Shown here piece after piece: positions 42,647-52,591 of a stretch of DNA of 64,000 bases. Under the pieces are notes generated by a model. It was not told the DNA's origin, searched no databases, and was given only the letters and a program-made list of their open reading frames with translations. Location: contig NZ_CP022657.1 in assembly GCF_002243515.1 (NCBI RefSeq), forward strand, positions 2,657,001-2,721,000. The letters run 5' to 3'. The position numbers and the translations under genes were made by a program. Within the stretch, counting starts at the first letter, position 1, and each line of letters opens with the position of its first letter. This stretch comes from Tumebacillus algifaecis. Lineage in GTDB: Bacteria; Bacillota; Bacilli; Tumebacillales; Tumebacillaceae.

Positions 42647-43891
42647 CTATGAAATCTCCTGTAATTTATTTTTCATACTGAGCAAAGCCAGCATCAAAAA
42701 CATCAGCGAAGCCGTAAGAAAAATAAAGTGCACCTCGATGTATTCCCCGCACACCCCACCGAGAAACAACCCGATTGGAGCGGCGATCCGCGCCAGCATC
42801 GACGTGGTGCCAGAGACGCGACCCAGCATATGATTGGGCGTCACTTCCTGACGAATCGTGTGGATATGGATGTTGGAAAACGTCGAAGCAGCGCCCAGAA
42901 TGAACAGCCCGACGGCCAAAATCAGCCAATGCGCGGATAAAAACAGCACCGACTGACCCAACGCCGCCGTCAGTATGGCGCCGATCAGCAGTTTGCCGCG
43001 CCGTCCCCATTTCAGGCTCGGCTTGGCGACAAAAGTCGAACACATGCTGCCAAGCGCCGATGCGGACAGCACCAATCCAAGTGAACTTGATGCCAAATGC
43101 AGTTTATCGAGCGCATAAAAGACGATGACCGCACCAGCGAACGAAGATACAAAGTTCACACCGAGCACGAGCAGCGTGATCGTGAACAACTCCTTGGTCA
43201 AGAGCAGTTGTTTCCAGCCTTCACGCATCTCCTCACGAATCGATGTTTTACGCCCTTCTGGCGATGGCGGCTTTTCCACTTTAGGCAATTTCATCAACGA
43301 AGTGAACATGAACAGGATCAGAAAGCCACCGATCGTGATCAACAGTCCTAGGCGATAGTTCATCACGAGGAGTAGGCTACCTGCGATCGAAGGTCCAGCC
43401 ATGGAGATCACAGTGCCCCAAAAGTTGATCGTCGCATTGGCCGACACATAGTGCTCCCGCTCCATCAACAGCGGTACAATACTGGTCGTTGAGTTTGAGA
43501 ACACATAGCCAAACGTCGTCAAACAAAATCCGAGCAGATACAAAACCCAGATCTTCGCCAATCCTGCTGTGAGCAAGCCGAACATCAACAGCAAGATGGC
43601 GATTTGCAACGCCACAGCAGCCAGCATCAGTCGCTTGCGGTCGAAGCGATCGACAATCACGCCGACCAACATGCCAAACAGCACATATGGCAACATGTTC
43701 ATGACCGCCATCGAACTCATCGCCAGCGTCGAACGAGACAGATCATAAATCATCAGCGGCAGTCCCAGCGTGTAAATGTGAAACGTCAGCCCGGAGAAGC
43801 AACTGCCAACCCACAAGTACAAAAACTGGCGATTGCGCCATAACGATTTGGGTTTCGCTACAGAGTTGACCTGAGCAAGCGGTGTGCTCAC
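42647..43891 (-). CDS. MFS transporter, probable exporter of the peptide-locus product
   Basis: About 414 residues and 12 hydrophobic segments with the MFS_3/enterobactin-exporter-like layout. The loop 2-3 motif is GMLVGVIVDRFDRKRLM, a typical MFS motif A. GTG 43891 has GGGGA nine bases upstream; GTG 43900 overlaps the upstream stop (GTGA) but its site is too close. The gene directly follows the nucleotidyltransferase and ends at a terminator, so it belongs to the same transcript as the six small peptides. It probably exports the mature product or protects the host from it. The sequence does not fix a substrate. Confidence 0.88.
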   Translation of the reverse strand: MSTPLAQVNSVAKPKSLWRNRQFLYLWVGSCFSGLTFHIYTLGLPLMIYDLSRSTLAMSSMAVMNMLPYVLFGMLVGVIVDRFDRKRLMLAAVALQIAILLLMFGLLTAGLAKIWVLYLLGFCLTTFGYVFSNSTTSIVPLLMEREHYVSANATINFWGTVISMAGPSIAGSLLLVMNYRLGLLITIGGFLILFMFTSLMKLPKVEKPPSPEGRKTSIREEMREGWKQLLLTKELFTITLLVLGVNFVSSFAGAVIVFYALDKLHLASSSLGLVLSASALGSMCSTFVAKPSLKWGRRGKLLIGAILTAALGQSVLFLSAHWLILAVGLFILGAASTFSNIHIHTIRQEVTPNHMLGRVSGTTSMLARIAAPIGLFLGGVCGEYIEVHFIFLTASLMFLMLALLSMKNKLQEIS

Positions 43892-43896
43892 AGATC

Positions 43897-45153
43897 TCAC
43901 TCCCCGCTAGAAGCCGCACAGTGCTGTGCGATCGCCGCGTCGAGTTCGAGCAATTCCTCGCGTGTTTCCAATCCAAAGCAGCTGGTCACATACCAACCGA
44001 CAGGCGAGCGGACGACCATCTTCCCTTGCAAGCGAACCCAAGCGTATTCGCCAGGTGTACCGCTCGGCACAGGGATCAAATGCGCCATCATGCGCAATTT
44101 GTAGCGTGGCAACGTAGGGAGCAATTTTTCAAAAAAGCGAACCAGCTTCAACTTCTCACGCTTGGACACCAGTTTCGTCAGCTTGTTGCGGTAGATGTTG
44201 AGCACTTCGAGCAACAGCGCGTTGAACAGACCGCCGTTGTCCACATTGTACGGAATGTAATGGTAAAGACGCTTACGCCATACGTTTTGTTTGACAAACA
44301 ATCTATTAGAGAAACCCTCGAGCATAAAATCGGGGATGTTCGCTTTCTGTCCGGAAACCTGCTCATAGTACTGCACCAACTGATAGAATTCCATATTCAA
44401 ATGATGGCCTTTTAAACGCTCGTGCAATTTTACATAATCAAGGTTGGGAGCTTCCAGTAGCAAGTATAAATCGACCGCATCGCGCAACCTAAAAATTTTG
44501 TTGCCCACCGATTCTCCGGTGAGGATCAAGATCATGTCTTCGGCAGACGGAATCGGAACTTTTACACCATTTACCAACGTTGTTCGTGCTTCGCTCCAAA
44601 AGTCACCGGACAGCCAACTGACCTCGCCCATGACAAAAGAGCCGATGCTCACTTCCAATTCGAGCATCGTGTTCTCATCGATGCGCTTATAAAAACCAGC
44701 AGCACCAACCACTTCACCGTGCAACTGACAAATCGCCGGTGCATTTTGGTAATCGAATCCAATCCCTTCGATCAAAGCGATCAATTTCCAAAAATCATCG
44801 ACCGATGGGACGACCAGGTCATAGTCGCCCATTTGACGCGGGCAACCTTCTGGGTAGAGATTTTTCATGGCGTTGCCTTTTATGTGAATATAGCGAACAC
44901 CATTTTCATTTAATACCTGCGCAACTTGGGCGAACAGTTCATCCTGAGCCGCACGGTTCCGCACCCGCTCTGTATAGTCTTCGTGCAGTCCCATCGATTG
45001 CTCCAATTGCAGGATTGGCACCATCATCTTGTTGTCATTGGCGATCTTTTTGACCTCTTCCTTTAAGCCTTCGTATTCGCGGATCAGTTCCTCGTTTTTC
45101 TTATCGGGGGTCAGAGCCAGACGATACAAAAACGGAAGTAGCTGTTGTTGCAC
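43897..45153 (-). CDS. NTP_transf_5-type nucleotidyltransferase
   Basis: 418 residues. Residues 85-120 hold the family core: HIKGNAM...YPEG..RQMGDYDLVV, with the two metal-binding aspartates of GDYD at 110 and 112. The middle has further acidic motifs and the C-terminal half is helical and basic. GTG start with AAAGGAGTG seven bases upstream. This family is uncharacterised. Members are known next to lasso-peptide genes in Bacillales, often with a kinase. Here it follows the six-peptide array after a hairpin, so peptide nucleotidylation or phosphotransfer is a reasonable inference. It could instead act on a phosphonate made by the divergent PEP mutase. Confidence 0.82.
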   Translation of the reverse strand: MQQQLLPFLYRLALTPDKKNEELIREYEGLKEEVKKIANDNKMMVPILQLEQSMGLHEDYTERVRNRAAQDELFAQVAQVLNENGVRYIHIKGNAMKNLYPEGCPRQMGDYDLVVPSVDDFWKLIALIEGIGFDYQNAPAICQLHGEVVGAAGFYKRIDENTMLELEVSIGSFVMGEVSWLSGDFWSEARTTLVNGVKVPIPSAEDMILILTGESVGNKIFRLRDAVDLYLLLEAPNLDYVKLHERLKGHHLNMEFYQLVQYYEQVSGQKANIPDFMLEGFSNRLFVKQNVWRKRLYHYIPYNVDNGGLFNALLLEVLNIYRNKLTKLVSKREKLKLVRFFEKLLPTLPRYKLRMMAHLIPVPSGTPGEYAWVRLQGKMVVRSPVGWYVTSCFGLETREELLELDAAIAQHCAASSGE

Positions 45154-45235: not shown

Positions 45236-45331
45236 CTACTTGCGGATGTTTACAAAATCAGTCTGCGGCAAAACGAAACCTTTGCGGACGTCGATAAAGT
45301 TCGGCAGTTCCATCACGATTGTGCGCTCCAT
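45236..45331 (-). CDS. Paired-DIRK peptide 6 (last in array, 31 aa)
   Basis: ATG 45329-45331 follows AAAGGAGGTGCCC, as good a ribosome site as any in the window; the stop is TAG. The product starts MERTIVMELPNFIDVRKG and ends with a second motif copy, DFVNIRK. It is the most diverged member of the group that has MELPxF in the first half. It has no signal peptide, no cysteine and no serine. Six neighbouring ORFs share this layout, which is strong evidence for coding. Its stop lies 20 bases before the inverted repeat that separates the array from the nucleotidyltransferase. Confidence 0.85.
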   Translation of the reverse strand: MERTIVMELPNFIDVRKGFVLPQTDFVNIRK

Positions 45332-45380
45332 AGTGGGCACCTCCTTTTTCTTGCAGGACGAGTCTTTTCGTCGTGCAAAA

Positions 45381-45479
45381 TTACTTCTTGCGGATGTCGA
45401 TGTACTCATGCGTGTACATAACGAGACCTTTGCGGATGTCGTTGAAGTACGGCAGTTCCATTACGAGTTTGCGCTCCAT
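45381..45479 (-). CDS. Paired-DIRK peptide 5 (32 aa)
   Basis: ATG 45477-45479 is preceded by GAAAGGAGGTGCACAAC. The first half reads MERKLVMELPYFNDIRKG and the second ends THEYIDIRKK, so each half closes with an aromatic residue, one spacer and D-I-R-K. It is nearly identical to peptides 3 and 4, from which it differs only around residues 21-24 (MYTH here). It is one of three 147-bp tandem units. No function is known to me. It lacks Cys and Ser, which argues against lanthionine, azole or sactipeptide chemistry. Confidence 0.88.
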   Translation of the reverse strand: MERKLVMELPYFNDIRKGLVMYTHEYIDIRKK

Positions 45480-45527
45480 GTTGTGCACCTCCTTTCAATT
45501 AAATCTCGGTAAATATAGGAAGAAAAA

Positions 45528-45626
45528 TTACTTCTTGCGGATGTCGATGTACTCAGGCGTGTGCAAAACGAGACCTTTGCGGATGTCGTTGAAGTACGGC
45601 AGTTCCATTACGAGTTTGCGCTCCAT
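45528..45626 (-). CDS. Paired-DIRK peptide 4 (32 aa)
   Basis: Two ATG codons stand in a row (45629 and 45626). The second keeps the same length and the same eight-base spacing to GGAGG as in the sister genes, so I take 45626. The first half is identical to peptides 3 and 5; the second half differs in LHTPEYIDIRKK (Leu and Pro in place of Met and His). The conserved parts are therefore MELPYFNDIRKG and EYIDIRKK, and the variable part is the short linker between them. Confidence 0.88.
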   Translation of the reverse strand: MERKLVMELPYFNDIRKGLVLHTPEYIDIRKK

Positions 45627-45674
45627 CATGTGCACCTCCTTTCAATTAAATCTTGGTGAATGTAAGAAGCAAAA

Positions 45675-45773
45675 TTACTTCTTGCGGATGTCAATGTACT
45701 CATGCGTGTGCATAACGAGACCTTTGCGGATGTCGTTGAAGTACGGCAGTTCCATTACGAGTTTGCGCTCCAT
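45675..45773 (-). CDS. Paired-DIRK peptide 3 (32 aa)
   Basis: ATG 45771-45773 follows AAAGGAGGTGCACAAC. It differs from peptides 4 and 5 only in the linker (MHTHEYIDIRKK). It is the most upstream of the 147-bp units. The 108 bases between it and peptide 2 contain no further member, only a remnant-like AT-poor stretch with no motif copy. Confidence 0.88.
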   Translation of the reverse strand: MERKLVMELPYFNDIRKGLVMHTHEYIDIRKK

Positions 45774-45881
45774 GTTGTGCACCTCCTTTACAACATTTTT
45801 TCCGAGATATCGAACTAGTGTGACGCACCACCAAGATCGTCTGATGTTGCTGAAACATTGCTCGACATTCCGGGATCATCA

Positions 45882-45977
45882 TTACTTGCGGATATCGATA
45901 AACAATACCGGTTCTTGCCAGTACTCTTTACGGATGTCGAAAAATTCAACAGGCTCTTGCCAACGGTTACGTTCCAT
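45882..45977 (-). CDS. Paired-DIRK peptide 2 (31 aa), openly duplicated halves
   Basis: ATG 45975-45977 follows GAGAGGAGGTGCACAAT. The two halves are near-copies of each other: RWQEPVEFFDIRK and YWQEPVLFIDIRK. This shows that the family arose by internal duplication of a 13-15 residue unit, W-x-E-P-V-x-F-x-D-I-R-K. The unit resembles the start of the PQQ precursor PqqA (W-x-K-P-x-F-x-D-L-R). It has no Cys, Ser or Thr. Confidence 0.88.
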   Translation of the reverse strand: MERNRWQEPVEFFDIRKEYWQEPVLFIDIRK

Positions 45978-46020
45978 ATTGTGCACCTCCTCTCCCAGCT
46001 AAGGCGTGTCCGATCCAATG

Positions 46021-46113
46021 TTACTTACGGATTTCGATGAACTCCGGCATCGTGATTGCGATACTGCGGATGTCAACAAATTCTACCGGTTGTGCTACGC
46101 GGTTACGGAACAT
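46021..46113 (-). CDS. Paired-DIRK peptide 1 (first in array, 30 aa)
   Basis: ATG 46111-46113 follows GGGAGGTGTCC. The first half is MFRNRVAQPVEFVDIRS and the second closes with MPEFIEIRK, so the motif is kept with I-E-I-R-K and D-I-R-S variants. It carries one Ser and no Cys. It is the promoter-proximal gene, about 75 bases after the predicted transcription start. Codon use and ribosome site match the other five. Confidence 0.85.
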   Translation of the reverse strand: MFRNRVAQPVEFVDIRSIAITMPEFIEIRK

Positions 46114-46170
46114 GGTGGACACCTCCCTTAACACTTAATTAGGGACGGAAAATTTAGCAAGTTTAGTGCC

Positions 46171-46199
46171 TTGAAAAAACTTTCCGTTTACTCTATTAT
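46171..46199 (+). promoter_or_regulatory. Sigma-A promoter for the PEP mutase arm
   Basis: TTGAAA (46171-46176), a 17-base spacer and TATTAT (46194-46199): each box is 5 of 6 to consensus with ideal spacing. Transcription should start near 46206, leaving a leader of about 110 bases. The -10 overlaps that of the opposite promoter. Confidence 0.75.
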
Positions 46200-46222
46200 A
46201 TAAATAATCAGAAAATAATCAA
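46195..46222 (-). promoter_or_regulatory. Sigma-A promoter for the peptide array
   Basis: On the minus strand TTGATT (46217-46222), a 16-base spacer and a perfect TATAAT (46195-46200). Transcription should start near 46188, about 75 bases before peptide 1. Its -10 shares six bases with the plus-strand -10. Confidence 0.75.
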
Positions 46223-46316
46223 GCGAAGATTTGAATGTTTTTCAGTCGAATTGATTGGTGAATATTCTATACGTAAACAAAAATTATATATAAAATTCGG
46301 AAGGGTGGGAATTGAG

Positions 46317-47198
46317 ATGAACCCGAGAAAACGATTGCGCAGTCTGATGCAGGAGCCGGATCGCATCATCCAAACGGTAGGGGCGCACAACGCGTTGGGA
46401 GCAAAGTTGGTGGAGCAGCACGGATTTGATGCGGTATGGGCGAGCGGATTTGAGATCTCCACAGCCCATGCCAAACCGGATGCAAACATCTTGACCATGG
46501 TCGAATTTCTTGAAGCTGCACGTCAGATGACCGATGCCACCCACTTACCGATCATCGCAGACTGTGACACCGGATTTGGCAATGTGAACAACGTGATCCG
46601 CATGGTGCGCGATTATGAGAAAGCGGGCATTGCAGCCGTCTGTATTGAAGATAAAGTCTTTCCAAAGATGAATTCCTTCATCCCAGGCTTCCAAACGCTC
46701 GCTCCCAAAGATGAATTTTCAGCCAAGATTCGCGCAGCAAAAGACACACAGCGCGACCCTGATTTTGTGGTGATCGCCCGCGTCGAGTCGTTGATCGCAG
46801 GACATGGGATGGAAGAGTCACTCGAACGTGCGGCCGCTTATGAGGAAGCGGGCGCCGATCTCATTTTGATCCATTCCAAACAAAAAGATCCCGGAGAGAT
46901 CTTCGAATTCAGCCGCCGCTGGAACTCCGACACACCGCTGGTTATCGTGCCAACCACTTACCCGAGCATCACGCTGACCGAAATGATCGAACATAACGTC
47001 AAAATGGTCATCTATGCCAACCAAGCGTTGCGGGCGGCGGTCAAGGCCATGAATCAAGTCCTTGCCCAGCTCAAAGAGTCTGGGTCGTTGCTTGCGATTC
47101 AAGATCAATTAAGCCCGATGGATCAACTTTTTGAACTACAAGGGTTGAAAGACATGATCAAACAAGAAGAACAGTACCGCAGACAAGAGGTCAGATAA
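46317..47198 (+). CDS. pepM: Phosphoenolpyruvate mutase
   Basis: 293 residues from ATG 46317, with AAGGGTGGGA upstream; upstream in-frame codons lack a site and run into the promoter. The active-site order matches known PEP mutases: WASGFEIS near 41, ADCDTGFGN at 81-89 and EDKVFPKMNS at 111-120. The EDKxxPKxNS gating-loop motif separates PEP mutases from isocitrate/methylisocitrate lyases and oxaloacetate hydrolases. The enzyme converts PEP to phosphonopyruvate, the entry to nearly all natural phosphonates. Equilibrium favours PEP, so a follow-up step is needed, yet no phosphonopyruvate decarboxylase, transaminase or reductase is encoded here. The thymidylate-kinase-like gene follows on the same strand, and the nucleotidyltransferase, peptides and exporter diverge. 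Confidence 0.93.
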   Translation: MNPRKRLRSLMQEPDRIIQTVGAHNALGAKLVEQHGFDAVWASGFEISTAHAKPDANILTMVEFLEAARQMTDATHLPIIADCDTGFGNVNNVIRMVRDYEKAGIAAVCIEDKVFPKMNSFIPGFQTLAPKDEFSAKIRAAKDTQRDPDFVVIARVESLIAGHGMEESLERAAAYEEAGADLILIHSKQKDPGEIFEFSRRWNSDTPLVIVPTTYPSITLTEMIEHNVKMVIYANQALRAAVKAMNQVLAQLKESGSLLAIQDQLSPMDQLFELQGLKDMIKQEEQYRRQEVR

Positions 47199-47265
47199 GA
47201 GGAGCGGTTAGAATTTGACAGCCAACGATTGCAAGCTGTTGCAATCTCGAAAGGAGTGCAGGAAC

Positions 47266-47889
47266 TTGAAACCGTTTTTGGTTATTGAAGGTGTAGATGG
47301 CACCGGAAAAAGCACCGTCTGTGCAGCTTTGGAGCAGGAACAAGGGGCTGCATTTTATAAAGGGATGTCACCAGAGTGGCGCGATTTCCGCGATTTTGTC
47401 GATGAAGATGCGGATGACGATTCGCGCCTGCTATACTATTTTGCTTCGTGTATGTACACGTCGGGCAAAGTAAAAAAATCTGGTGAAAAAGTGCCGGTGA
47501 TCTGTCACCGCTATTTTGCAACCTATATGGCGATCTATTCTCTGAACACCGGAACGCCGCTGGAGAAAGTGCTCGAGGCGTTTGCACCGATCCGCGAGCG
47601 CATGGTCACGCCGCACCTGTCGATTTTATTGACGGCAGACCACGAAGAATTGAAACGCCGCCTGCTCGCCCGTGTCGATGAACTAAAAGCGACCGATATG
47701 CGGGTCGTCAACTCGCACGAATATACCTTAAACTTCGAAGCGGCTCTGCGAGCAGTGATGAGTTGGGACGGGCCCTACATCGTTTTGGACACGACCGGCA
47801 AAACACCGGAACAAGTCGTGTCCGAGGTTCGTCAGCTCTGTGTCCAGCACATTCCCGGCTGGCCAACGGTCATCGAATCGTCCAACTAA
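47266..47889 (+). CDS. Thymidylate-kinase-like P-loop kinase
   Basis: 207 residues from TTG 47266 (AAGGAG nine bases upstream). An in-frame TTG at 47215 also has a GAGGAG site and would add 17 residues that the family lacks, so the later start is preferred. The Walker A motif is EGVDGTGKST, and the fold follows thymidylate kinases (about 205-215 aa). The DRY motif that follows strand 3 is HRY here (VICHRYFATYMA), and the LID region is short (RLLARVDELKATD). That loss of the Asp argues against a housekeeping dTMP kinase. Because it shares a transcript with PEP mutase, phosphorylation of a phosphonate or nucleotide intermediate is possible, but this is inference. Confidence 0.8.
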   Translation: MKPFLVIEGVDGTGKSTVCAALEQEQGAAFYKGMSPEWRDFRDFVDEDADDDSRLLYYFASCMYTSGKVKKSGEKVPVICHRYFATYMAIYSLNTGTPLEKVLEAFAPIRERMVTPHLSILLTADHEELKRRLLARVDELKATDMRVVNSHEYTLNFEAALRAVMSWDGPYIVLDTTGKTPEQVVSEVRQLCVQHIPGWPTVIESSN

Positions 47890-47946: not shown

Positions 47947-49221
47947 TTACAACGCGATGCCGCGCTTTTGCAGATCTCCCATCAAATAATCGTGGAGTTG
48001 CTCCCAGCGGCGTGCAGACTCTTCGTATTTCCCTTGACGGTTGAGGAGACGGCAGAGTTTGCGGGTACCTTCCTCCAATTCGGAGGTCATGCCATACTGT
48101 TCGAACAATGCGAGCGCACGGTCGAGATGGGCCTGACCTTTTTGATCATCTTCTCGCTCAAAGAAGATCAGTGCTAGCAACTGATGGACTCGGCCCATGC
48201 ACGGATGAAGTTCCGGCAAGCTCATTCGTGCCTTTTCCGCGTACTCACACGCTTCATCGATCGCCTCGTTCGTCAGCAAAATGGTGGCGATATCCGCATA
48301 CAGCTCTCCGACCTTCGCACCTTCACAATGGTTGGTCATGGCGAGTAGCTCCTGTACGGAAGCTCTCCAGTCGATTCGATCGCGCTTGAGCAACACCGCT
48401 CTGCGCTTCCAGTCCTGATTGTGCCGAGTGTTTTCTTCCTCTTCCAGCAAGATCGTAGCCTTGGTCGCATATTCATCCGCCTTGAGGTAGTTCTTTTGAC
48501 GGTAGTAGGCGTCTGCAAGCTTCAGCATCATCTTGCCTCGATCCTCCGCTTCTACCACCTGCAACGCCGCATTCCAACATTCTGCTGCTTTGTTTACCTG
48601 GCCGGTCTTCTCATGAACGTTCGCCAATTGTACCAACACTTTTGCCTGAAGCGCCGGGTCAGGCAGCTCAATCTTTTTCAATTCCTCAAGCGCACGCTCG
48701 GTGTGATATAAAGAGATTGAATATTCGCTCTTTTTTAGTGCATCCAGCCCCATATGGAGATACACTTTGGACAGCAGCTCTCCATCCTGCCGCAGAATCG
48801 CCAAGCCCTGCACCTCGTTCAAGAATGACATCGCCTCCGCGGCCCGTCCAACTTGGAGCAAGGAGAAGGCCAATTCCACCTGCACGTCCATCTTCGGAAT
48901 CTGCTGGTCGGTGCTGTCGAGCAATTCCTGCAACTGCGTGATCGCCAACCCGTACTCCTTGGCTCGCACCAGCCCTTTCGCCATCTTATATTTGGTGATG
49001 TCTGCCAGATCGAGTTCAACATCTTTCAGCAAAAAGTCGAGTGGCACGCCCAATTTCTCTGCAATCCCAAACAATATTTTATACGAAGGAGTGGTTCTGT
49101 CCGACTCGATTTGCGAAATCATACTCGGCGTACAAATTCCATCTGCCAGCCCAATCTGGGTCATCCCCTTCTTCACTCTCAACTCACGAATTCTTTGTCC
49201 CAACGATGTCATCATTTTCAT
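47947..49221 (-). CDS. XRE-family HTH regulator with TPR repeats
   Basis: 424 residues (or 422 from the ATG at 49215, which is better spaced from GAGGAGG). Residues 8-62 form an XRE HTH (RIRELRVKKGMTQIGLADGICTPSMISQIESDR). The rest is helical with repeated TPR-like pairs through to the C-terminus. This is the RRNPP-like architecture (PlcR, NprR, PrgX) in which the TPR part binds a short peptide or protein. It converges on the PEP mutase arm and is therefore not in that transcript. It may control it, but no pheromone-type ORF with a signal peptide is adjacent. Confidence 0.88.
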   Translation of the reverse strand: MKMMTSLGQRIRELRVKKGMTQIGLADGICTPSMISQIESDRTTPSYKILFGIAEKLGVPLDFLLKDVELDLADITKYKMAKGLVRAKEYGLAITQLQELLDSTDQQIPKMDVQVELAFSLLQVGRAAEAMSFLNEVQGLAILRQDGELLSKVYLHMGLDALKKSEYSISLYHTERALEELKKIELPDPALQAKVLVQLANVHEKTGQVNKAAECWNAALQVVEAEDRGKMMLKLADAYYRQKNYLKADEYATKATILLEEEENTRHNQDWKRRAVLLKRDRIDWRASVQELLAMTNHCEGAKVGELYADIATILLTNEAIDEACEYAEKARMSLPELHPCMGRVHQLLALIFFEREDDQKGQAHLDRALALFEQYGMTSELEEGTRKLCRLLNRQGKYEESARRWEQLHDYLMGDLQKRGIAL

Positions 49222-49794: not shown

Positions 49795-50973
49795 CTAAAA
49801 ATTCTTGTCGAGCGGGAAACGTTTTTTCGTCAATCTCCCCTTCGATTTTCGGGTCAACACATGCCACTGCTGCAAAAACTCTTTTTGCTTAAAGGCAATC
49901 GTCAGATAGCGATACGCAAGGTACCTGCTCTTTTTCGGGTAGCTCAGATTCCGCGCCACGCCATCCGCATACCGGGTGTCTTGAGTGGCCCGGGACAGTA
50001 AGATTAGCATTCTTGCTTTTAAATCCAAGTTTTGATCAATAGGTTCCGATTGTAACGTTTTGCGAATTATTGACTCGGCTGCCTGAAATTCATGTAGTTT
50101 GATATACACTTTCGCCAATGCCTTAAACCCGCTCAGACGTACAATTTCATTTTCCCAATATTCGATCGAACCCGCGATTAGATCTCTTGCTTTCCTGTAG
50201 TTGAGATCAGCATATTCAGCCCAGGCGACATTGAGATAGGCCCGACCAATCCGATCACGATTCGTAGTTGTCAAATATAGTTCCAAACATTTATAGAGAT
50301 ACATTTTGGCTTCTTTATGTTCAAACGATGAGTACTTCATTTTGGCAAGTGCAACATACAAAACACCATGATTAAGCGGATCATTCTGCAAATAGGGCTC
50401 CACTTGCTCTTTGATCTCAAGTACTTTATCAAACTCATCAGTATGTGCATAAACATTCAAAAACAGGACCAAGCATCTGGAATATAATGCCTCATCTTGA
50501 TAGTCCTGTTTGATTTTTTCTGCAATCACGTACAATTCTTGTAGATATTGCTTCGCTTTATCGAAATCCTGTTTCCAGAAACAGATGTATGCAATTGCAG
50601 AGAGGCTGAATGCTCTTTCCGACATACCGATCGATACAACGTGTCGAGCTTCGACTAGTTCCATGGCCTTCCCTAACTGGTTCTGTGTAATAAGTTGACG
50701 ACGAAGGTCATTATTATTTTGTGCATGCAAATCTTCTTGCAACAATCGAGGCAGCTGCACTTTCAAATCTTGGGCAATCTTCTCTAATTCAAAGTTGTAG
50801 ATCTCGCGTTCACCATTCAACATCAGCCGCAATGTCTCCCTGCTCATCCCAAGCCGTGCTGACATCGCTGTAATGCTGTAGGAACTGCCTTTTTCCTTCA
50901 TAATCTCGCGAATTCGCCGCCAGAGCGGAATCTTATCTTCATACGTATGTGTAGGTGCTGTAAGTTGGCTCAT
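49795..50973 (-). CDS. XRE-HTH/TPR regulator, paralogue B
   Basis: 392 residues. The start has AGGAG seven bases upstream. The N-terminal HTH (RIREIMKEKGSSYSITAMSARLGMSRETLRLMLNGER, near 15-55) is followed by a linker and about ten helices with TPR-like spacing, ending in a basic tail (KGRLTKKRFPLDKNF). It is closely related to the gene at 50990-52159 and lies 16 bases downstream of it. This architecture suits a ligand-responsive repressor or activator. Its targets and ligand are unknown. Confidence 0.85.
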   Translation of the reverse strand: MSQLTAPTHTYEDKIPLWRRIREIMKEKGSSYSITAMSARLGMSRETLRLMLNGEREIYNFELEKIAQDLKVQLPRLLQEDLHAQNNNDLRRQLITQNQLGKAMELVEARHVVSIGMSERAFSLSAIAYICFWKQDFDKAKQYLQELYVIAEKIKQDYQDEALYSRCLVLFLNVYAHTDEFDKVLEIKEQVEPYLQNDPLNHGVLYVALAKMKYSSFEHKEAKMYLYKCLELYLTTTNRDRIGRAYLNVAWAEYADLNYRKARDLIAGSIEYWENEIVRLSGFKALAKVYIKLHEFQAAESIIRKTLQSEPIDQNLDLKARMLILLSRATQDTRYADGVARNLSYPKKSRYLAYRYLTIAFKQKEFLQQWHVLTRKSKGRLTKKRFPLDKNF

Positions 50974-50989
50974 TCATTTTCTCCTGCCA

Positions 50990-52159
50990 TTACATATTGT
51001 TATCCAGCGAAAAAAGACGTTTCGAGTTACTCCGTTGCACCCTTGCTGACCGTGACCGACCCAGCCTTAGTATTCCTTTGTAATATCGATTGAGATAGCG
51101 CGATGCGATAAACCGTTCCTTCTTGTTGTATTGCATACCGGAGACGACTGCTTCCGCATAGCCAGGATTCCCTGTAGCTCGAAACAATAAGATAAGAAGC
51201 AAAGCTTTCACGTCCAGATGTTCAACAATCCGATCCGATTGTAAAGCTGACCGAATTACTTCCTCCGCTGCACGATTTTCTTTGAGTTTGATTAGCGTTT
51301 TTGCCAAACCTTTCTTCGCCAGAAACCAAATTTGGACAGACGGATCCGTTCTAAATACAGCTTCAAAAAGTTCTTTTGCTTTCTCATACTCGCGTGTGAC
51401 ATATTCAATGTACGCAATATTCATGTATCCTCGTCCGATCCTATCCGTAACCTTTGACAGCAAAAATTGTTCATGACTTTTGTAGAAATACATTTTCGCA
51501 TCGGCCAGTTCATACCTCGATAATTCCATTCTAGCAAGCGTATAATACACCAATCCCATTAGAGGCGTATCGCGAAAAATTGGTTCGACCAATTCTATGA
51601 GTTCGAGCGCTTTGTCAAATTGCCCCATATTTGCATAGCAGTTCAAGAGATTATTCAGCGCTTTCTCAAGTATTTTGCTATCTTGATACTTCTTGTTAAT
51701 TTCTTCTGCCATTGCATAAAATTCCAAACAATGTCGAGTTGCTTCTTCTAATTCGCCCTTCCAGAAGTGTACAAGTTGTAACCTGTTGGTCGCCTCTGCG
51801 CGCTCTGAGAGACCAATTGCAACATCGTTATGCTCCCTAGCGGCGCGCATCGACTCCTCCCACTGGCCATTAGATATATACTTCGAAAACTGTTTATCAC
51901 TATGATAGTGCATCAAATCCGCTTGCGTTAGACGTGTCAACGGCACTTTCAAATCTTGTGCGATCTGCTCCAACTCGAATGTGTAAAGCCCGCGTTCGCC
52001 ACTCAGCATCACTCGCAGTGTCTCACGGCTCATACCAAGACGACTTGCCATGGCTGACATGCTGTAGGAACTTCCTTTTTCTTTCATGATCTCTCGAATC
52101 CGCCGTCCCAGCGGAATTTGATCTACATAGGTATGCGTTGGCGCATCTAATTGGCTCAT
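50990..52159 (-). CDS. XRE-HTH/TPR regulator, paralogue A
   Basis: About 389 residues from ATG 52159, chosen because the paralogues all begin MSQL.APTHT and GGGGA then has a seven-base spacing; an ATG two codons earlier is too close to that site. The HTH is SAMASRLGMSRETLRVMLSGER. TPR-like helices and a basic C-terminus (SNSKRLFSLDNNM) follow. It is the first gene of a three-gene paralogue operon that ends at the 49353-49376 terminator. The shared C-terminal F[PS]LD.N. motif in A and B suggests a functional tail. Confidence 0.85.
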   Translation of the reverse strand: MSQLDAPTHTYVDQIPLGRRIREIMKEKGSSYSMSAMASRLGMSRETLRVMLSGERGLYTFELEQIAQDLKVPLTRLTQADLMHYHSDKQFSKYISNGQWEESMRAAREHNDVAIGLSERAEATNRLQLVHFWKGELEEATRHCLEFYAMAEEINKKYQDSKILEKALNNLLNCYANMGQFDKALELIELVEPIFRDTPLMGLVYYTLARMELSRYELADAKMYFYKSHEQFLLSKVTDRIGRGYMNIAYIEYVTREYEKAKELFEAVFRTDPSVQIWFLAKKGLAKTLIKLKENRAAEEVIRSALQSDRIVEHLDVKALLLILLFRATGNPGYAEAVVSGMQYNKKERFIASRYLNRYYKGILRLGRSRSARVQRSNSKRLFSLDNNM

Positions 52160-52591
52160 GTTCATTCCCCTGTCATCGCTCGTTTAAAGTTGACTGTCGA
52201 ACAGATATCGTTTTTGGTCTGACTTCATGAACGATTCGCATACGGTTGTCGTCCTCTTTGAAGGTGTCACGTGCAAAGAGGAATGAGGAGCGACTCTTTC
52301 ACCACAGCAGAAGCCGCTTGAAACTGGGTTGAGCGGGTGCCGCCTAATGGCGCCTCTTGATCCACTGCCATTTCTTGAACGACGATTCCAATATAGAAAA
52401 GTATACGAATCTCATTAATATTAGCATAGCTTATTTTGCAGAATAATTCCTCATACCTAACCGGAAAATTCTGTACTATATCGAATAAATAACAAATGTA
52501 TAACTACGATTCAAGGCGTTTTATATCGAAAATATTTGTGATATGATAAGGTAGTAATTTCCCACCCTCATTCTGAGAGGAGATGCTGCTA
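52160..52591. promoter_or_regulatory. Divergent intergenic region between XRE operon and orphan 189-aa gene
   Basis: These 432 bases hold no firm gene. The right half is AT-rich and includes a weak plus-strand promoter (TTTATA at 52520-52525, 16-base spacer, TATGAT at 52542-52547). The left half is GC-richer and has a 34-codon minus-strand ORF (52267-52371, starting MAVDQEAPLGG) without a ribosome site, which I do not call as a gene. Confidence 0.4.

Follow-up and report, generated by a model that had tools for sequence, protein, structure and literature searches.

We analysed a stretch of DNA of 64 kb, hereafter the window, which corresponds to C1:2657001-2721000 of a Tumebacillus genome assembled as a single contig of 4.52 Mb. 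In it we considered the gene of a PEP mutase, PepM, and its surroundings (locus A). The features, with positions referring to the window, were the following:

42647-43900, minus strand: MFS exporter (MFS_1)
43897-45153, minus strand: NTP_transf_5 protein (PF14907, 68.5 bits), divergent neighbour of PepM
45236-46113, minus strand: array of six tiny ORFs, 30-32 aa each, with strong ribosome-binding sites
46120-46316, plus strand: upstream region of PepM, strongly conserved in an alignment of three species
46317-47198, plus strand: PepM, 293 aa, assigned by TIGR02320, EDKx5NS, catalytic residues and clade
47257-47889, plus strand: TMPK1, thymidylate-kinase-like P-loop kinase of about 210 aa, about 60 bp 3′ of PepM, with an uncertain start (47215 or about 47266)
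47947-49221, minus strand: HTH-TPR regulator (HTH_3 and TPR domains)

The PepM ORF starts with ATG and has GGAAGGGTGGGA upstream. A promoter-like TTGAAA-17-TATTAT is located 5′ of it at 46171-46199, a weak candidate because the count of the consensus scan was not above that of shuffled sequences. With the TIGR02320 PEP mutase profile the protein scored 324.4 bits, hence passing the cut-off of 319.55 by a small margin, and it was under the cut-offs of the methylisocitrate lyase, CPEP mutase and phosphonopyruvate hydrolase profiles (274.9 bits for the last one, whose cut-off is 374.4). The initial annotation had recognised a true PEP mutase by the segments EDKVFPKMNS and ADCDTG; both are present, as residues 111-120 and 81-86, respectively, and the profile score and the retained catalytic residues uphold that assignment. 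In fact, when PepM was aligned to the mollusc PEP mutase 1m1b and to 5unc, it retained the equivalents of D58, D85, D87, E114, K120, N122, S123 and R159, which we take to be catalytic. In the tree, it was placed inside a clade with pepM of phosphonate clusters and grouped with PepM of Priestia flexa (support 99/95, on long branches), to which it is 57% identical; identity to PepM of G237, from a rhizocticin-like cluster, is 58%. The narrow TIGR02320 margin and the match to the hydrolase profile are what could speak for a hydrolase or lyase of the isocitrate-lyase/PEP mutase superfamily in place of a mutase. Such a reading is scarcely credible, the least probable of those we weighed, given that in the alignment EDKx5NS of PepM has Asn where phosphonopyruvate hydrolase 2dua has Thr, that the best solved relative of PepM is PEP mutase 5unc and that its clade is that of pepM from phosphonate clusters. 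The product of 46317-47198 is a genuine C-P bond-forming PEP mutase, as far as activity can be predicted.

TMPK1 is the only co-directional neighbour of PepM and is kept beside pepM in three Tumebacillus species. It scored 34.8 bits with PF02223 and 39.5 bits with the dTMP kinase profile TIGR00041 (cut-off 83.25), and it carries HRY in place of the DRY motif of thymidylate kinases; by score and motif we discarded it as a housekeeping dTMP kinase. In a homology search of 398 Bacilli genomes, it was not found in the 395 others. Outside the genus, no orthologue was found among viral contigs, GTDB contigs and the same 398 genomes, and the plasmids searched gave only P-loop kinases at 24-26% identity.

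The tiny-ORF array is upstream of the PF14907 gene and of the MFS exporter gene. Each ORF contains two F-x-D-I/V-R-K-like repeats (e.g. MERKLVMELPYFNDIRKGLVMYTHEYIDIRKK), and the array is present in both congeners too (L013, L014). These ORFs look like ribosomal peptide precursors, candidate members of the phosphonate pathway; in P. flexa NBRC 15715 a single candidate ORF of 16 aa (MIVKRSSKIRRTSVTL) is similarly placed. A PF14907 gene is found within 10 kb of pepM also in P. flexa (L064) and in G233 (L062), and the PF14907 protein is possibly part of the cluster. In P. flexa an MFS gene likewise adjoins the PF14907 gene (26% identity to the MFS protein of the window, which is the probable export gene of the cluster), and an HTH-TPR gene follows pepM there too (24% identity to the Tumebacillus protein, a candidate regulator of the locus). 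Beyond locus A, at 49795-52165 on the minus strand, the window encodes a tandem pair of regulator-like proteins, 392 and 391 aa long, with an MSQL-APTHTY start, and further paralogues occupy the same place in the congeners.

The equilibrium of PEP mutase favours PEP by more than 500:1, and the pulls known to act on it are a decarboxylase, an aminotransferase, a 2-hydroxyacid dehydrogenase and a homocitrate-synthase-like enzyme (PMC12871164). According to the initial annotation, no such enzyme was encoded within about 17 kb downstream or 46 kb upstream. This held for the whole 64 kb window, in which tblastn with single-chain and split decarboxylases, AEP transaminase, 2-hydroxyacid dehydrogenase, homocitrate synthase and Psf3-like proteins returned none. 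Its broader statement, that the mutase was without any of the usual follow-up enzymes, has to be withdrawn, as a two-subunit decarboxylase is encoded on the same chromosome. Precisely, a whole-chromosome search with the phosphonopyruvate decarboxylase profile returned two adjacent ORFs at C1:2.228 Mb that jointly span the profile (locus B):

C1:2227999-2229065: PpdA and PpdB, two-subunit phosphonopyruvate decarboxylase, with RhiE and RhiF as best solved relatives
C1:2227999-2231408: operon of PpdA, PpdB, FomA/IPK-like kinase, TMPK2 and Psf3-like reductase, 472 kb from PepM

PpdA and PpdB are intact ORFs of 168 and 184 aa, separated by 5 bp and matching profile positions 2-152 and 171-357, respectively; a single broken gene was thus ruled out. 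PpdA matched RhiE (9iz3_A) with E 3.7e-61 and PpdB matched RhiF (9iz3_B) with E 2.6e-57, other TPP enzymes following at a distance, and both are 50-60% identical to the PpdAB adjoining pepM in G237 and G233. RhiEF is described in a review as the heterodimeric decarboxylase of the rhizocticin pathway, converting phosphonopyruvate to phosphonoacetaldehyde (PMC12141560). The separate chains scored 119.6 bits (PpdA) and 152.4 bits (PpdB) with TIGR03297, both below its cut-off of 312.5 bits, which is no defining test for a split PpdA/PpdB since this profile describes the fused enzyme. The sulfopyruvate decarboxylase profiles gave 114.2 bits for PpdA (alpha) and 150.0 bits for PpdB (beta), also under the curated cut-offs. 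A sulfopyruvate decarboxylase was considered and rejected: the scores (114.2 vs 119.6 and 150.0 vs 152.4 bits) are not decisive, and the likeness to RhiEF and the operon context decide.

The operon continues with a protein of the amino-acid-kinase family whose closest solved relative is FomA (3d40, E 6.3e-31), isopentenyl phosphate kinases ranking behind; as for profiles, the isopentenyl phosphate kinase HMM scores above the FomA HMM. After GGGxxG, the proteins of Tumebacillus, P. flexa and G204 carry Asn where FomA has His, and for this reason a FomA-like function has to be assigned with care. The next protein of the operon, TMPK2, is thymidylate-kinase-like. The last one is a HIBADH-family reductase, whose closest solved relative is by far 5u5g (177 bits, E 4.7e-51; next 133 bits), which we take to be Psf3, the enzyme reducing 2-oxopropylphosphonate in the fosfomycin pathway of Pseudomonas. 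A Psf3 homologue has been listed as '6-phosphogluconate dehydrogenase', which fits the name of entry 5u5g (PMC8719888).

Both loci are present in all three Tumebacillus species examined. T. avium (G001) and a second congener (G002) each have a single over-cut-off PEP mutase, in the same place and next to the same kinase, together with a single PpdAB-kinase-kinase-reductase operon in the same arrangement; neither a PEP mutase nor such a FomA-like kinase was found in four sister-genus genomes. One tight operon of P. flexa NBRC 15715 (L064:7844-11058) encodes the FomA-like kinase, TMPK2, the Psf3-like reductase and PepM, which share 48, 51, 43 and 57% identity, respectively, with their Tumebacillus counterparts. 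It is this joining of the kinase-kinase-reductase trio to PepM that ties loci A and B together. Moreover, among the other Bacilli pepM loci retrieved, a decarboxylase was located within 1.5 kb in 29 of 30, which makes it the expected partner of pepM; Tumebacillus is unusual in distance, since the clustering of decarboxylase and mutase, usual and not essential, gives way there to a separation of 472 kb. The conservation in the congeners, the P. flexa operon together with the tree, and the usual decarboxylase partner say, as lines of comparative evidence, that loci A and B would be one pathway. What is read from the DNA here is the predicted identity of mutase and decarboxylase, the family of each other enzyme and the conservation of both loci.

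The initial annotation had left two options for the pull. Its origin from another locus is borne out by the RhiEF-type decarboxylase operon, conserved with PepM in three of three Tumebacillus genomes. A new kind of pull by the kinase or the nucleotidyltransferase is unsupported and unneeded, as the decarboxylase is present and the PF14907 gene, on the opposite strand, shares no operon with PepM. A genome-wide search for the decarboxylase had also been proposed, with the expectation that a co-regulated gene elsewhere would make this an ordinary phosphonate pathway: the gene was indeed found elsewhere; as for co-regulation, no motif common to the upstream regions of pepM and ppdA was above shuffled sequence.

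The same genome encodes a second PEP mutase at C1:149.4-159.0 kb (L003:2416-11984), in an operon-like run of sugar-phosphate/PRPP enzymes. The run is composed of an OPRTase-like protein, a truncated and a full archaeal-type GAPDH, a transaldolase/F6P-aldolase, RpiA, the PEP mutase, a 2-hydroxyacid dehydrogenase, a PGK-like protein, a PRPP synthase, RPE and an EamA exporter. It could lead from phosphonopyruvate, through phosphonolactate, to phosphonate analogues of glyceraldehyde 3-phosphate, ribose 5-phosphate, PRPP and a nucleotide. Relatives of its GAPDH are only 31-35% identical and occur in 8 of 397 other genomes of the phylum; no pertinent paper on pepM-transaldolase clusters, judged by title and abstract, came out of a literature search. 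This second operon and the array of six tiny repeat peptides are more unusual than the split pathway.

Three other sources of the pull were weighed against PpdAB. The Psf3-like reductase could reduce phosphonopyruvate to phosphonolactate, with PpdAB serving another 2-oxo acid, e.g. sulfopyruvate; reductive pulling of phosphonopyruvate is known (PMC12871164), and the reductase is common to P. flexa, where no decarboxylase was found. We regard this as highly unlikely, considering that P. flexa has a pull of its own in the homocitrate-synthase-like gene, that RhiEF is by a wide margin the nearest solved relative of PpdAB, which stands in one operon with the FomA-like kinase, and that the known phosphonopyruvate reductases are 2-hydroxyacid dehydrogenases (PMC12871164), whereas the enzyme of locus B is by far nearest to 5u5g. 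More improbable still is that TMPK1 and/or the PF14907 protein consume phosphonopyruvate directly with ATP or NTP. TMPK1 is, in its favour, the sole co-directional neighbour, conserved beside pepM across the genus, but every genome with the PepM-TMPK1 pair has a dedicated decarboxylase, TMPK1 is genus-confined in the genomes searched, the P. flexa contig carries a related PepM operon without it, and the PF14907 gene is on the other strand. A shade less probable again is a pull by the 2-hydroxyacid dehydrogenase beside the second PEP mutase (C1:153-155 kb). Enzymes of this kind pull some phosphonate pathways (PMC12871164) and its gene overlaps that of the second mutase; that mutase, however, has its own operon, and T. 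avium and G002 have the window mutase and no second mutase over the cut-off, so the pathway of the window must run there without the second locus.

On these grounds PepM very probably catalyses the first step of a phosphonate pathway driven by a decarboxylase, with its genes divided between two loci of the chromosome. PepM would convert PEP to phosphonopyruvate, and PpdAB would convert this to phosphonoacetaldehyde and CO2, the release of CO2 pulling the mutase equilibrium; with CO2 lost, the decarboxylase step would be effectively irreversible. For every step past the decarboxylase we infer the substrates of reductase and kinases, the order and the product. The Psf3-like reductase probably reduces phosphonoacetaldehyde to 2-hydroxyethylphosphonate, phosphonoacetaldehyde being 2-oxopropylphosphonate, the substrate of Psf3, minus a methyl. 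Just as FomA acts on fosfomycin, the FomA-like kinase probably adds a phosphate to a phosphonate, which TMPK1 and TMPK2 may then extend in the manner of FomB; FomA and FomB are the fosfomycin self-resistance kinases of Streptomyces (PMC4790336). The phosphorylation would be either protection or part of the product, which the MFS pump would export. We considered unlikely the more specific proposal that a phosphonic acid is extended by the FomA-like kinase, TMPK1 and TMPK2 to a phosphono-phosphate or diphosphate, as active product or protected intermediate, and that the PF14907 protein and the six tiny peptides are involved in that same product, in which a phosphonate would be attached to a ribosomal peptide or matured together with it.

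Against the two-locus, decarboxylase-driven pathway there are the 472 kb between the loci, with no common upstream motif, and the scores of PpdA and PpdB under the curated cut-offs of both the phosphonopyruvate and the sulfopyruvate decarboxylase profiles. Furthermore, P. flexa has the trio without a decarboxylase and with a homocitrate-synthase-like gene instead, so that phosphonoacetaldehyde and what is made from it are not necessarily the substrates of the trio; its presence in a fosfomycin-like cluster suggests a module serving more than one early pathway. All in all, the pathway appears to be a rather ordinary phosphonate one, distributed over two clusters, and the apparent breach of phosphonate thermodynamics is removed. 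The proposed pathway is decarboxylase-driven, lies in two loci and has an unusual kinase set. The gene set so defined for a Tumebacillus phosphonate comprises PepM, the RhiEF-type decarboxylase, the Psf3-like reductase, and the FomA-like and thymidylate-kinase-like kinases. Genome mining centred on pepM and limited to nearby genes can miss the pulling enzyme when loci are split. A search of the literature on Tumebacillus phosphonates gave nothing relevant by title and abstract.

As in the Bacillus rhizocticin pathway, the Tumebacillus decarboxylase has two chains, close to RhiE and RhiF, and PepM resembles that of the rhizocticin-like cluster of G237. Unlike that pathway, both Tumebacillus loci are without aldolase, threonine-synthase-like and ATP-grasp genes and have the kinases and the Psf3-like reductase instead, and mutase and decarboxylase are far apart (472 kb). 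The Psf3-like reductase and the FomA-like kinase are shared with the Pseudomonas-type fosfomycin pathway (PsfABC, Psf3, Psf4, FosC/FomA), in which, however, the early pull is phosphonomethylmalate synthase and not a decarboxylase. Fosfomycin production by Tumebacillus was considered and rejected, as no HppE/Psf4 epoxidase was matched in three Tumebacillus genomes by a single P. flexa query sequence, used with no positive control. As for Streptomyces FomA/FomB, a FomA-family phosphonate kinase precedes another kinase within a phosphonate operon; the Tumebacillus kinase differs from FomA by the Asn after GGGxxG, and the further kinases differ from FomB in being thymidylate-kinase-like P-loop proteins, whose FomB-like action is putative.

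The P. flexa NBRC 15715 contig (L064:1-12982, NZ_BCVD01000115.1) carries an apparent Pseudomonas-type fosfomycin cluster in a Bacillota species. Its genes encode a homocitrate-synthase-like protein, an HppE-like epoxidase (E 2.8e-35 with 5u55), the FomA-like kinase, TMPK2, the Psf3-like reductase, the PEP mutase, the MFS and PF14907 proteins and a haem-oxygenase-like protein. No phosphonopyruvate decarboxylase was found in the P. flexa genome, and L064:6453-7199 gave no PsfC match by PDB sequence search.

Related kinases occur elsewhere. In G204 (L060:7224-10321), a FomA-like kinase with 51% identity to that of Tumebacillus adjoins an MFS pump and a LysR-like regulator; this genome has no PEP mutase match at E 1e-80, and the protein is possibly a phosphonate-resistance kinase. 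On the Rhizobium leguminosarum plasmid NZ_CP090100.1 (L082:4031-9651), a TMPK2-like kinase (36% identity) is about 3 kb from aepX and aepY, which suggests that such kinases recur in phosphonate clusters. Finally, plasmids of Pantoea agglomerans (L084) and Streptomyces durmitorensis (L081) have TMPK2-like kinases next to genes of nucleotidyltransferase and PEP-binding/PEP-synthase-like proteins, apparently within natural-product clusters of other kinds.
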